Below, piece by piece: positions 43,723 to 48,701 of a stretch of 64,000 bases of DNA. The notes beneath the pieces are model-generated. The model was not told the origin of the DNA. It did not search any database and worked only from the letters and a program-made list of their open reading frames with translations. The stretch's first letter is position 1. Each line of letters starts with the position of its first letter. The DNA comes from Natrinema longum. Lineage in GTDB: Archaea > Halobacteriota > Halobacteria > Halobacteriales > Natrialbaceae. Made by a program: the position numbers and the translations under genes. The stretch covers positions 1,364,001-1,428,000 of the forward strand of contig NZ_CP071463.1 of the NCBI RefSeq assembly GCF_017352095.1, read 5' to 3'.

Positions 43723-46700
43723 CTACGTCTCGTCGTCGGTCGCCCCGAAGGTGAACACGTCGTCGCTCTCGGCCTCACTGTCGTCGTCCTCGTCATCCGT
43801 CTCGAGGTCGCCGTCCGCCGAGTCGTCGACGGATTCGGATTCGTCCGTCGTCTCGTCGGCCGCAAGCGGCTCCGCCGATTCCTCCGACTCCGGCGGTTCG
43901 ACTGCAAACGGATCGTCCGCGTCTTCTGAATCCGATTCCGACGGTTCGACTGCAAGCGGATCGTCCGCGTCTTCCGAATCCGATTCCGACGGTTCGACTG
44001 CAAGCGGATCGTCCGCGTCTTCCGAATCCGATTCCGACGGTTCGACTGCAAGCGGATCGTCCGCGTCTTCCGAATCCGATTCCGACGGTTCGACTGCAAG
44101 CGGATCGTCCGCGTCTTCCGAATCCGACGCCGGCGGTTCGGCCGCAAGCGGATCCGGCGATTCGGTCGCTGCACCGAATCCGCCGTCGTCGCTGTCGTCA
44201 CCGTCTTCATCCGGGTCCTCGATCCCGAGGATCTCTTCGGCACCGATCTCGTCGGTGTCCCCGTCGACCGCTGGCTCGTCACCGGGTTCGCGATCTTCGG
44301 GAGTCTCAGCCGGCGTCTCGTCCTCGAGTCCGTCGAGTGACGAGCCCTCCTCGGGCGTCGCGGCCGTCGATCGATCGGTGGTGTCCGCGTCCGAATCCAC
44401 GTCGAGATCGAGTGTCTCCTCGGCTGCACCGTCGTCGAACGTCAGCGTCCCCTCGGCGTCGTCCTGCCCGCTTTCCGCGTCGGCGTCGAAGGTGATGCCA
44501 CGATCCCCGTCACTCGGTTCGTCGTCGGTCGTGTCATCGACGCCGCCCAACTCGGGGCCGTCCAACTCCGCGTCCACGTCGAAACTCGACTCGAAGTCGA
44601 CTGCCGTGCTGTCGACGTCAGTGTCGAACCGGTCGAGCGCTTCCGAGAGCTGGGAGGCCTGCTCGGAGAGGCCCGAGGCCGATTTCGTGACTTCGGTTAG
44701 CGCGGTGGTCTGCTCTTCGGCCGCGGCCGCGACGTTCTCGGCTTCCGACGTCGTCTCCTCGGAGATCGTCGCCGCGTCGTCGACCATCGCGACGACCTCC
44801 TGCGTCGAGGCTGCCTGCTCTTCGGTCGCCGCGGAGATCTCCTGGACGCCCACGTTGGTCTCCTGGGCGAGTTCGGCGATCTCTTCGAGCGCGTTGACCG
44901 CTTCCTCGACCTTCTCGCTGGCGTTTTCGATGTTAGTACTCGTTCCCTCGACCTCGGTGGCGGAGGTCTCGGTCCGCTCCCGAATCGCCTCGAGTCGGTC
45001 TTCGGCTTCGTTGGCCGCCTCGGCGACGTCCTCGGAGAGTGCCTTGACCTCCTTGGCGACGACGGAGAACCCTTCGTCGTCGCTGCCGCCGGCGGAGCGG
45101 GAGGCCTCGATGTTGGCGTTGAGCGCCAGCATGTTGGTCTGGCGAGCGATCTCGGAAATCGTGTTGATGAGTTCGTCGATCTGCTGGACTTCCTCTTCGA
45201 GCCGGCGGATCTCGGAGACGGCGTCGCCGGCTTCGTTCTCGATCTCGTCCATGGCCGTGATCGCCGCCTGGGCGGCCTCCTGCCCTTCCTGTCCGGTATC
45301 GACGGTCCGTTCGGCGATATCGGCCACCTCGTTCGAGGAGGCGGCGATCTCTTCGGTCGTCGTCGAGAGACCGCTCATCTCCTGGTTGACCGACTGGAGC
45401 GACTCGTTCTGTCGGTCCGCACCGTCGGAAATCTCCTGAATGGACTCCGTGACCTGCTGGGAGGCCGACCGGACTTCTTCGCTCGAGGCAGTCACCTGCT
45501 CGGAGGCGGTCGCGACGTCGGTCGCGAACCGGTTGAGCTCGGCGATGGTCTGCTCGATCTCGTCGAGCATCTCGTTGAAGTCCTCCCCGATCTGTTGCAT
45601 CTGCTCGTTGTCGCTTTCGGCGTTCGCGCGGGCGGTGAGGTCGCCGTCGGCGGCATCGCCCATGACCGCACAGTACTCGGCGGCCTTCTCCTGGAGATGG
45701 TCGTTGATCTCCTGGACGCGTTCGCGTTCGCGTTCGGCCTCCTCGCGAGCGGCTTCCGCTTCCTCGATCTGCTCGCGCAAGGCGACGCGCATCGAGTCGA
45801 AGCCGTCGTACAGTCGACCGATGTTGTCGATCCGTTTGGTCTCGAGGTCGACCTCGAGGTTCCCTTTCTCCATCTCGCTTGCTTTGTCCGTGAGGCGGTC
45901 GATCGACACGGCGGTGTTCCGACCGAGGATGGCACCGACCGCGCCGATCATGACGATGCCGAGGATCGTCGCGTAGATCCCATACTGGGTGACGTTGTTG
46001 ACGTACCCGAGCGCCTGGTCGGCGGGCTCGTGTCTGACGATGACCCAGTCGGTACCGAACACCGGAGCGGCACTCGTGACGTAGTTGCTATCGCTTTGGA
46101 AACCGTAGTAGTCGTTGTCGAACGCAAACGAGGAGCCCGATACTTCCCGGGTATTCGCACCCGAGGTCCGGGCCGTCGTGAGGGAATCGCTATCGCCACC
46201 GTATGCGAGTCCGACCGAATCGTGACCCTCGGCGTAGTCCTCGGTGTTGTCGAGCATGACCTCGTCGTCACCGCCGAGGACCATCGTCTCCACACCCTCC
46301 TCGTTCTGTAGCTGATTGGCGTAGGCCTCGAGGTTGGCGGTGTAGACGATCGCTCGGTCCTCGTTTTCCGACGAGAGCTGGACGTAGGTGACGACGGTGG
46401 TATTCTGCCCGAACTGATCCTCAGCGAGGTAGGCGTCCGAAACCCAGATGACGCCCTGTTCAGCCGTCGAGTAGGCGTCCTCGGGAACGTTGTCAATGCT
46501 GCTGGTCGGCTGGTTGCGGAACGCGTCGTTGGTACTTGCGGTTACCGTCTGGGTATCCCGGTTAACGTAAGAGATATCGAACGTATCGGCATCTAGATGT
46601 TCCTCCCAGTCGAGGAAGCGGGCCTGGATCGCCTCGGGATCGTCACTCGCGACGACGTCCGACCGGGCGAGCATCCCAACGGTGTGTTCGTTCTGTTCGT

Positions 46701-46905
46701 TCCACATCTGCAGACTCTGTGCCTCCTGTTGGGCCGCAGCCGTCTGATCGCTTTGTACTCGATCTTCCGCCTGATTCGAGATTGCCGCCGTTGCACCGTA
46801 TCCGATCAGCCCGACCGAGAGCCCGAGAACGAGCAACGCGATCGCGAACTTGACCGCGTATCTACGTCGGATAGCTTTTGGCACCAATCGTCGCGCGAAA
46901 TCCAT
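43723..46905 (-). CDS. Methyl-accepting chemotaxis transducer with acidic repeat tail
   Basis: The protein is 1060 residues long. The order is: cytoplasmic start, membrane helix 1 (about 18-40), an extracellular sensor domain of about 260 residues (Cache-like), membrane helix 2 (about 303-325), HAMP region(s), and a methyl-accepting signalling domain with the hairpin tip NMLALNANIEASRSAGGSDDEGFSVVAKEVKALSE. After the signalling domain comes an about 300-residue acidic tail with five copies of a 16-residue repeat, DDPLAVEPSESDSEDA, ending DDVFTFGATDDET. Such a tail is unusual. It is divergent from a binding-protein gene, which suggests that the two proteins sense a ligand together, as BasT/BasB or CosT/CosB do in Halobacterium. 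Confidence 0.9.
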   Translation of the reverse strand: MDFARRLVPKAIRRRYAVKFAIALLVLGLSVGLIGYGATAAISNQAEDRVQSDQTAAAQQEAQSLQMWNEQNEHTVGMLARSDVVASDDPEAIQARFLDWEEHLDADTFDISYVNRDTQTVTASTNDAFRNQPTSSIDNVPEDAYSTAEQGVIWVSDAYLAEDQFGQNTTVVTYVQLSSENEDRAIVYTANLEAYANQLQNEEGVETMVLGGDDEVMLDNTEDYAEGHDSVGLAYGGDSDSLTTARTSGANTREVSGSSFAFDNDYYGFQSDSNYVTSAAPVFGTDWVIVRHEPADQALGYVNNVTQYGIYATILGIVMIGAVGAILGRNTAVSIDRLTDKASEMEKGNLEVDLETKRIDNIGRLYDGFDSMRVALREQIEEAEAAREEAERERERVQEINDHLQEKAAEYCAVMGDAADGDLTARANAESDNEQMQQIGEDFNEMLDEIEQTIAELNRFATDVATASEQVTASSEEVRSASQQVTESIQEISDGADRQNESLQSVNQEMSGLSTTTEEIAASSNEVADIAERTVDTGQEGQEAAQAAITAMDEIENEAGDAVSEIRRLEEEVQQIDELINTISEIARQTNMLALNANIEASRSAGGSDDEGFSVVAKEVKALSEDVAEAANEAEDRLEAIRERTETSATEVEGTSTNIENASEKVEEAVNALEEIAELAQETNVGVQEISAATEEQAASTQEVVAMVDDAATISEETTSEAENVAAAAEEQTTALTEVTKSASGLSEQASQLSEALDRFDTDVDSTAVDFESSFDVDAELDGPELGGVDDTTDDEPSDGDRGITFDADAESGQDDAEGTLTFDDGAAEETLDLDVDSDADTTDRSTAATPEEGSSLDGLEDETPAETPEDREPGDEPAVDGDTDEIGAEEILGIEDPDEDGDDSDDGGFGAATESPDPLAAEPPASDSEDADDPLAVEPSESDSEDADDPLAVEPSESDSEDADDPLAVEPSESDSEDADDPLAVEPSESDSEDADDPFAVEPPESEESAEPLAADETTDESESVDDSADGDLETDDEDDDSEAESDDVFTFGATDDET
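43895..44158. repeat. 48-bp tandem repeat in the transducer tail
   Basis: About 5.5 copies of a 48-bp unit begin at 43895, 43943, 43991, 44039, 44087 and 44135. The unit codes for 16 residues on the minus strand, and the middle copies are almost identical at the DNA level. The outer copies are degenerate. This is a minisatellite likely to vary in copy number between strains. Confidence 0.85.
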
Positions 46906-47348
46906 GGATAGGAAACGGGTACTCTCGTCACTACATAAATTGTCAGCCACGGTTATCGAAGCTGATAATCGGATCGTGGCACCATATATTCCACATATAA
47001 CAGCGTTAGTCAACCACCACGGCACATATCAAGTTGTACGATATAAAATTAATAATTTCTCTCCATATCACGCAGCGATCATCCGACGGACGTTCGTCCG
47101 ACGGCCCAGTATCAATGTCGAGATATCATCCGGTGTGAGGACAGATTAACAGAGTGGTAGCGATTTATATTGAGACACGTTGATAGAATTAAACCGGCGC
47201 GACCGATTGCGATAAAACGATTATAAATTGAATTGGAGTTTAAATCGTGCAGAGGGTTAACAGCCCGTCCGGAATCTGGCCTCTTTCCTTCCATCCAGTA
47301 TCATCTGGCCGAAACGATTAAGAATGCCAGAAACAGAGACAGTAAGGA
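46906..47348. other. AT-rich divergent region between transducer and binding-protein genes
   Basis: These 443 bp are much more AT-rich than the surroundings. TATA-like stretches occur at about 46983-46998, 47040-47060 and 47212-47250, and ACGATTAAGAATG near 47314-47326 is close to the binding-protein start. The palindrome CGGACG-TT-CGTCCG lies at 47087-47100. No gene is seen; the length suggests several regulator sites. Confidence 0.5.
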
Positions 47349-48701
47349 ATGACTGAACGTAACCGGCGCAGTGGTGAACCGAAACTCCCCTCGAGCGTCG
47401 ACGGGCGACCGAGCGGGCTCGACCGACGGACGCTCCTCAAAACGGGGGCCGGTGGCGTCGCGGGGGTTTCATTTGCGGGCTGTCTGGAGATGGCCGGCAT
47501 GAGCGGCGGGAATAGCGACGGTCCGGAGCCGGTCAAGATCGGCGTTTTGGCACCGAATCCGAAGAGGGACACGATCGGTCAATCGATCGTACGCGGGGCG
47601 GAAGTCGCAGTCACGGAACTCCAGGACAACGGTGGGATCGACGGGAGGGATGTCGAACTGGTCGTCGGCGACACGAACGAGAGTCCGCTCGAGGGGCGTC
47701 GCGAGTACCAGCGACTCACCCTCGAGGAGGACGTGGACGTGACGGTCGGCGTCTTCGCCAGCGAAGTGCTGATGAACATCATAGACGACATCGCCAAACA
47801 AGAGACCCTCCACCTGACGTCCGGTGCCGCGACCACGGCGGCGAGTGAACTGGTGAAAAACCAGTACGAGGACTACAAGTACCACTTCCGCGTGGGACCG
47901 AACAACGACTACGACCTCGGCCGGATGCAGATGGACTTCCTGAACGACATGGCCAGCGATATCGGCTGGAACTCCATTGCCGTCCTGGCGGAGGACTACG
48001 ACTGGACCGAAAAGCCGTGGGAGGTCTATCAGGAACGACTCCCGGAGATGGATATCGATGTCGCCATGGAACGGCGATATCCGGCAGCGACCGACGACTT
48101 CTCGGAGATCTACAGCGAGGTCGCGGATGCGGAGGCCGACGCGGCCTTCATCACGACGGCACACACCGGGAACAGCGCGCTCTCGGACTGGTCCAATCCG
48201 CGGGACCGATCCGAACCACAGCCGTTCGCGTTCGGCGGTATCCACGTTCCGATGCAGCTCCCGTCGTACTACGAGTTAGTCGACGGTGCCTGCGAGTATG
48301 GCGTCATGCAAAACAGTGCCTCAAAACAGAGTACACGGTCCGAGACACAGGCGTTCATCGAACTGTACGAAAACCAGTACGATGGGGAGAGCCCGGTCTA
48401 TACGGGGTATCACGCGTACGACGCAGTCACCCTGTTCGCCAACGCCGTCGAGGAGAGCGGCACGGTCGATTCGACGGAACTCGTCCCGGTTCTCGAGGAG
48501 TTCAGTTTCACCGGCGCTGCCGGTACCATCGAGTTCTACGGCTCCGATCACGACTTCCCGCACGATCTCAGATACAACGCTTCGGACCCCGACCCGGTCT
48601 ACCTCCAGTGGCAGGAAGACGACGACGGCAACGGTGTACAAGAGATCATCTGGCCCGAAGCGCAGGCGACCGCGGACTACATCGCACCGCCCTGGCTCTG
48701 A
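47349..48701 (+). CDS. LivK-type substrate-binding lipoprotein (Tat-exported)
   Basis: The protein is 450 residues long. A twin-arginine signal (GLDRRTLLKTGAGGVAGVSFAG) ends in a lipobox Cys. The binding domain resembles branched-chain amino-acid/urea binding proteins (type I periplasmic fold): KIGVLAPNPKRDTIGQSIVRGAEVAV, TVGVFASEVLMNIIDDIAKQ, TSGAAT, and YTGYHAYDAVTLFANAVEESG. No permease or ATPase is next to it; instead a chemotaxis transducer is divergent from it. It may therefore present the ligand to the transducer. Its stop codon begins copy B of the dispersed element. Confidence 0.85.
   Translation: MTERNRRSGEPKLPSSVDGRPSGLDRRTLLKTGAGGVAGVSFAGCLEMAGMSGGNSDGPEPVKIGVLAPNPKRDTIGQSIVRGAEVAVTELQDNGGIDGRDVELVVGDTNESPLEGRREYQRLTLEEDVDVTVGVFASEVLMNIIDDIAKQETLHLTSGAATTAASELVKNQYEDYKYHFRVGPNNDYDLGRMQMDFLNDMASDIGWNSIAVLAEDYDWTEKPWEVYQERLPEMDIDVAMERRYPAATDDFSEIYSEVADAEADAAFITTAHTGNSALSDWSNPRDRSEPQPFAFGGIHVPMQLPSYYELVDGACEYGVMQNSASKQSTRSETQAFIELYENQYDGESPVYTGYHAYDAVTLFANAVEESGTVDSTELVPVLEEFSFTGAAGTIEFYGSDHDFPHDLRYNASDPDPVYLQWQEDDDGNGVQEIIWPEAQATADYIAPPWL

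Follow-up and report, generated by a model that had tools for sequence, protein, structure and literature searches.

What does a chemotaxis-type transducer do beside the binding protein of a transporter? In Natrinema longum, a transducer gene is divergent from a gene for a LivK-type substrate-binding lipoprotein, in a stretch of 64,000 nucleotides (positions 1,364,001 to 1,428,000 of contig NZ_CP071463.1) that is called the window here. The first-pass annotation, made from the sequence, described the two genes as a sensing pair with no permease or ATPase. Both genes were confirmed (Table 1), and the pair is flanked by genes for a homoserine kinase, an MFS protein and a polysaccharide deacetylase but not by a permease or ATPase gene. 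I conclude that the two genes very probably encode one two-protein receptor. Its binding protein (BP) was probably captured once by the transducer from a carboxylic-acid uptake operon.

Is the pair conserved? I compared 46 loci of Natrialbaceae, which include some genomes twice and have 37 distinct intergenic sequences. They come from Natrinema, Natronorubrum, Haloterrigena, Natrialba, Halopiger, Halobiforma, Salinadaptatus and Natronolimnohabitans. In all of them, the BP gene is divergent from an orthologous transducer gene, and the spacing between the two starts is 148-722 bp (median 276). Thus, the conservation of the pair, which the annotation had proposed to check, was borne out. One BP gene is present in 23 loci, two tandem genes in 15 and three in 8, and the tandem copies differ by about 40%. 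A sample of 392 genomes covered the order. Within it, each of the 43 genomes of the same family that have a BP of at least 55% identity also carries the transducer orthologue, so the arrangement is far from chance (Fisher p ~1e-48, uncorrected for shared ancestry). Seven genomes of the sample have the transducer without a BP at this level. The sole 56% BP match outside the family lies inside an ABC/CoA-ligase operon, and no homologue of the focal BP clade was seen beside a transducer outside Natrialbaceae in the 392 genomes and the homologue searches. Halobiforma haloterrestris (L120) and another genome (G169, L219) have three transducers and a different Peripla_BP_6 protein beside the focal pair.

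Where did the BP come from? A maximum likelihood tree of 113 BPs was made by a quick method with a midpoint root and has a few long branches. All 60 transducer-linked BPs and two orphans form one clade (SH-aLRT 99), and 47 ABC-linked BPs lie outside it. The nearest BPs outside the clade (42-56% identity; Halorussus, Halorientalis, Halomarina, Haladaptatus and Natronomonas) are followed by genes for LivH, LivM, LivG and usually LivF. These importers have pocket-segment residues in common with the focal BP, but theirs come with permeases and ATPases and without a transducer. In 20 of the 24 ABC-linked relatives with at least 42% identity, a gene for a coenzyme A (CoA) ligase, an enoyl-CoA hydratase or an acyl-CoA dehydrogenase lies within 10 kb, while none of the 60 transducer-linked BPs has such a gene within that distance. 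The CoA ligase (AMP-forming) is nearest to fatty-acid--CoA ligase models, below their cut-offs. An orphan copy of the clade without its own transducer (Natronorubrum texcoconense, L118) is found among CoA-transferase, thiolase and CoA-ligase genes. Since the transducer-linked BPs form one clade and their nearest outsiders belong to operons of LivHMGF and acyl-CoA genes, the tree contains a single ABC-to-transducer switch. The ABC state probably came first, because the wider family, including its bacterial relatives, is ABC-linked.

The annotation had named one pattern as speaking against a sensing pair: homologues always occurring with ABC permeases and never with transducers. In the close clade, the reverse was found, since its members lie beside the transducer and never beside permeases, bar the two orphans. 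A hidden permease was also considered and rejected; none lies within about 4 kb of any transducer-linked BP, and none is labelled in the wider maps. The adjacent permease and ATPase of a Liv importer subunit are missing from the focal BP gene, while a distant paralogue at L061 has both. In one Natrinema, a lone and very divergent BP (L100:7602-8801) lies between the genes that flank a Liv ABC operon in the genome of the window. In Halostagnicola (L159:12335, L166:12368), a soluble PAS-MCP protein adjoins a Liv-type BP and a permease gene, with CoA-ligase and thiolase genes alongside. If true, the single capture clearly illustrates how a transport protein was taken over once for sensing, and both states are alive in close relatives, which opens the switch to study.

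How may the two proteins work together? The transducer has HAMP (E 2.6e-6) and MCPsignal (E 1.8e-30) matches in Pfam, and its outer domain gives no call in the same search. The annotation called this domain Cache-like. The label is correct, because an AlphaFold model of residues 1-380 (pLDDT 82) matches, in its outer part, the tandem-Cache chemoreceptors PscC, Tlp3, PctA and TlpA with probability 1.0 in a Foldseek search of the PDB. The membrane and HAMP region is nearest to HtrII of sensory rhodopsin II. With HAMP, MCPsignal, two membrane helices and an outer ligand domain, the protein has the build of an Htr/MCP transducer. The lipoprotein matches Peripla_BP_6 (E 3.2e-41), its model has a venus-flytrap fold (pLDDT 95.5), and it is 97% identical to the homologue of Natrinema ejinorense. 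The lipid-anchored BP, whose ancestor would be the substrate-binding component of a LivHMGF importer tied to acyl-CoA metabolism, would capture a ligand outside the membrane. The loaded BP would then dock on the tandem-Cache domain, and the transducer would pass the signal on through its HAMP domain and MCP hairpin, reaching a CheA/CheW complex in the manner of BasB/BasT. The signal would enter the CheF-less cheYBACCDR pathway described below, with the type IV pilus as a candidate output.

It is also conceivable, if unlikely, that the transducer senses its own ligand via the Cache domain and that the lipoprotein next to it does something else, such as scavenging or feeding an unlinked permease. 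Direct ligand binding is common in tandem-Cache domains, to which the fold matches point, and five further Natrialbaceae species have the transducer without a BP at the same site. The co-occurrence in 43 of 43 genomes and the repeated tandem BPs found only beside the transducer argue against it, and in Haloterrigena sp. H1, a single deletion took the beginnings of both genes. In one species without the lipoprotein (G022), the outer domain evolves faster (w 0.56, versus about 0.25-0.28 in other pairs of comparable divergence). In addition, the amino-acid motif of dCache_1, in which R126 of PctA is accompanied by W128 (PMC10104139), is missing; R-x-W was found in none of the 42 aligned family members in a test of sequence over residues 90-230. 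Three Natrinema species (G012, G017 and G020) keep an intact transducer beside short BP remnants, and their signalling part has w of 0.19-0.25, versus 0.06-0.15 in paired species. These comparisons of BP-less species are few and involve related species.

What does the receptor bind? The annotation suggested an amino acid, urea or betaine. The residues H97, T104, W161, H214, H241 and Q245 in the predicted pocket segments are common to the ABC-linked and transducer-linked groups. No Asp or Glu is present in the BP segment FGGIHVPMQLPS, in contrast to Atu2422, which binds gamma-aminobutyric acid (GABA) and Ala, and to the BasB-like protein; these residues were placed by alignment, not by superposition. 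A urea-binding protein was rejected, as the NCBIfam models TIGR03669 and TIGR03407 reach just 55 and 40 bits, with cut-offs of about 494. Given these urea scores, the segment without an acid and the transport relatives beside acyl-CoA genes, the suggested ligands are not favoured, and an organic, fatty or aromatic carboxylic acid is the most likely class. The best guess, a carboxylic acid without an alpha-amino group, would have slightly less than an even chance. That the same two-protein receptor binds an amino acid (or urea or an amide), as for BasB, with the acyl-CoA link being incidental, is improbable. The fold family takes in Leu, GABA, urea and amide binders, and the conserved Ser80 and Thr104 are presumably the equivalents of the carboxylate-binding pair in LIV-binding proteins. 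However, FGGIHVPMQLPS aligns with the segment that holds the ammonium-binding acid in amino-acid binders and that retains Glu in BasB-like proteins, the urea models are far under their cut-offs, and the nearest ABC relatives mostly lie in CoA-metabolism operons.

Where does the signal go? Searches of the host genome with archaellin and CheF models gave no match, while the controls, including Haloferax volcanii and other relatives, were positive. The host chromosome is one closed contig of 3.59 Mb with a stated completeness of 99.83%. CheF is required for archaellar switching in Halobacterium salinarum (PMC2666748). Since the genome has neither archaellin nor CheF, with which a receptor of the archaellum would work, chemotaxis is doubtful as a role in this organism, and the swarming response that the annotation had in mind is not supported for the host. 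Among 28 Natrinema genomes, archaellin is absent in 16 and matched in 12, and CheF is absent in all 28, the archaellin-bearing ones included. It is very unlikely that ordinary archaellum-driven chemotaxis operates here, with archaella and a CheF equivalent missed or located on an absent plasmid. Plasmids may indeed be missing although the chromosome is one contig, and most of the 12 genus members with archaellin matches have the pair. Nevertheless, the same models that are empty here find their targets in relatives, no genus member has CheF, and the completeness is high.

The host genome encodes a CheF-less cheYBACCDR operon and two cheW genes (L311, 3.11-3.12 Mb), which resemble the che-only locus Nmag_3145-3153 (PMC3403918). 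The pair would most likely feed cheYBACCDR rather than an archaellum, given that the genome encodes neither archaellin nor CheF and that sister transducers lie inside this operon in two other haloarchaea. One of them (G032) has the same che order, with two transducers of the focal subfamily between an intervening open reading frame (ORF) and cheR. The other (G042) has one transducer at the equivalent place and no pilin-type operon. A conserved ORF of about 400-420 aa is located between the pilin-type operon (or transducer) and cheR (L311:4795-6045, L106:3270-4532, L098:6651-7853), and the two that were tested have no Pfam match. In the host, a T2SSF/pilin-like operon adjoins cheYBACCDR; the pilin reading comes from N-terminal hydrophobic stretches and DUF7287-7289 matches, with no named pilin model. 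Type IV pili are tentatively the best-placed output, and gas vesicles are a lesser candidate. A second Che set (rhodopsin, transducer, CheW, CheY, CheA, CheC and CheD) is nested inside a gas-vesicle gene cluster (L252:15953-19500, L253:352-10935; G000:C1:2.32-2.34 Mb), with gvpF/L, G, K and a GvpA-family gene on one side and gvpO, a gvpN-like AAA gene and gvpA on the other. Light control of buoyancy is possible for this set. A plasmid search with its CheA gave only bacterial records among the top matches. The set was rejected as the sole pathway, since cheYBACCDR with CheR and CheB is also present, and is kept as an alternative only.

Taken as a whole, the account of a receptor with a carboxylic-acid BP of LivHMGF descent that signals to the CheF-less cheYBACCDR system and not to the archaellum is moderately probable. 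Several points weigh against it. At least nine of the genomes sampled (G012, G017, G020, G022, G240, G251, G318, G353 and G356) keep the transducer and lack the lipoprotein, so the Cache domain may itself sense something. The acyl-CoA link is drawn from relatives, and ligand specificity can shift. The focal transducer itself lies outside the che operon, and a pilus output is suggested by gene neighbourhood. Finally, pair loss is somewhat commoner in archaellin-less Natrinema (6/16 versus 1/12, p 0.18), as expected if the pair formerly served in swimming. Is the pair then a relic on its way out in a lineage that lost archaella? The BP remnants in the three Natrinema species and the deletion in Haloterrigena sp. 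H1, all archaellin-less, would fit, but this is quite unlikely for the host, in which both genes, the promoter palindrome and the che operon are intact and w between the window and Natrinema ejinorense is 0.25 for the outer domain and 0.12 for the signalling part. If the account is true, chemotaxis-type receptors persist in archaea seemingly unable to swim, and the targets of such Che systems become testable.

The features of the locus are collected in Table 1. The listed ORF of the transducer extends to a GTG at 47025, and the ATG was taken as the start because orthologues align from that Met. The inverted repeat GTTATC-N6-GATAAT stands at a fixed distance from the transducer start, immediately upstream of the TATA-like element. 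Of 52 transducer genes, 44 have it without mismatch at this site, some of them in the absence of a BP, and it occurs as a single copy in 1.32 Mb of host genome sequence. The palindrome is a mark of transducer regulation, not of the pair as such.

Table 1. Features of the transducer and lipoprotein genes, in positions of the window
Feature	Position	Strand	Remarks
Transducer (MCP/Htr) gene	43723..46905	-	1060 aa; stop at 43723, ATG start at 46905
Acidic C-terminal tail	43726..44625	-	~300 aa, 41% Asp+Glu; length varies among orthologues
C-terminal motif DVFTFG	43745..43761	-	
In-frame tandem repeat in tail	43883..44154	-	48 bp (16 aa) x 5.7, 95% matches
MCP signalling domain	44767..45276	-	Residues 544-713
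HAMP domain	45772..45927	-	Residues 327-378; related to HtrII of sensory rhodopsin II
Extracytoplasmic tandem-Cache (dCache) domain	46018..46782	-	Residues ~42-296; flanked by two predicted membrane helices
Divergent intergenic region	46906..47348		443 bp
TATA-like element of transducer promoter	46933..46940	-	ATTTATGT on minus strand; conserved in intergenic alignment and upstream listings
Inverted repeat GTTATC-N6-GATAAT	46952..46969	+	46 bp upstream of transducer start; likely operator or activator site
Substrate-binding lipoprotein gene	47349..48701	+	450 aa; Peripla_BP_6, venus-flytrap fold
Twin-arginine and lipobox leader (DRRTLLK...FAGC)	47349..47483	+	Lipid anchor at Cys45; read from translation

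The transducer ends in an unusual way. All 42 orthologues with at least 50% outer-domain identity have an acidic tail of highly variable length and sequence with DVFTFG at its end; the count was made for VFTFG with another 4-17 residues behind it. The strict motif is present in 47 of 52 family members and in none of 1747 other proteins of the loci, and when more haloarchaeal MCPs are sampled, FxF at the end is confined to the subfamily with a core identity of about 57% or more. A second site encoding DVFSFG exists in the host genome (G000:C1:3267199-3267215). Thus, the transducer carries a conserved aromatic motif at the tip of a flexible linker. The bacterial Tar and Tsr likewise end a flexible linker with a short aromatic motif, the NWETF-type pentapeptide. 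In contrast, the focal motif is FxF rather than WxxF, is followed by 4-17 residues and sits on an acidic tail of 150-330 aa. A published xZxxZ survey found a C-terminal pentapeptide in none of 2730 Halobacteriales receptors (PMC7390727); its rule, applied at the very end, would miss DVFTFG. The motif is a putative tether for CheR, CheB or CheD and, if it acts as one, would be a first candidate for the tethering of adaptation enzymes in haloarchaea, a group reported to lack the bacterial pentapeptides. The widest version of the account, a Natrialbaceae-specific receptor with a BP from a carboxylic-acid operon, a CheF-less Che system, an output other than archaella (type IV pili or perhaps gas vesicles) and a DVFTFG tether that recruits an adaptation enzyme, is doubtful in its entirety.

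How does the pair compare with known systems? BasB/BasT of Halobacterium salinarum responds to Leu, Ile, Val, Met and Cys, has the orthologous pair HVO_0553/HVO_0554 in Haloferax volcanii, and its BasB copurified with the transducer (PMC3579733, PMC2841640). There, too, a gene for a binding protein of the ABC superfamily adjoins a gene for a two-helix transducer, and the focal pair shares the adjacency of an ABC-type lipoprotein gene and a transducer gene with no permease. Orthology to BasB/BasT was rejected: identity to a presumed BasB-like BP is just 24% in an alignment of 233 aa (E 0.003), and both systems coexist in one genome (G013). Together with the conserved pairing, this supports the annotation's view of a sensing pair distinct from BasB/BasT. 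No BasB-like protein was found in the host genome at E 1e-20. Plasmid records carry only generic annotations for the L107 pair. The putative BasB-like pairs in relatives (L107, L093) are co-directional and overlapping or nearly so, while the focal pair is divergent with one to three BPs. The host genome has a second pair (L065:7439-11088; G000:C1:1.31 Mb), in which a Peripla_BP_6/ANF_receptor protein is encoded directly upstream of, and co-directionally with, an 848-aa transducer. In Natrialba magadii, the transducers Nmag_1253 and Nmag_1386 adjoin periplasmic ligand-binding proteins, and the accessible part of that account does not mention ligand, origin or output (PMC3403918). One of these two may be the present locus. 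In CosB/CosT, Htr6/OE2170R and Htr18/OE2196F of H. salinarum, the last two being without a known ligand, the binding protein copurified with its transducer (PMC3579733). Compared by description, not by sequence, these are likewise pairs of a binding protein and a transducer.

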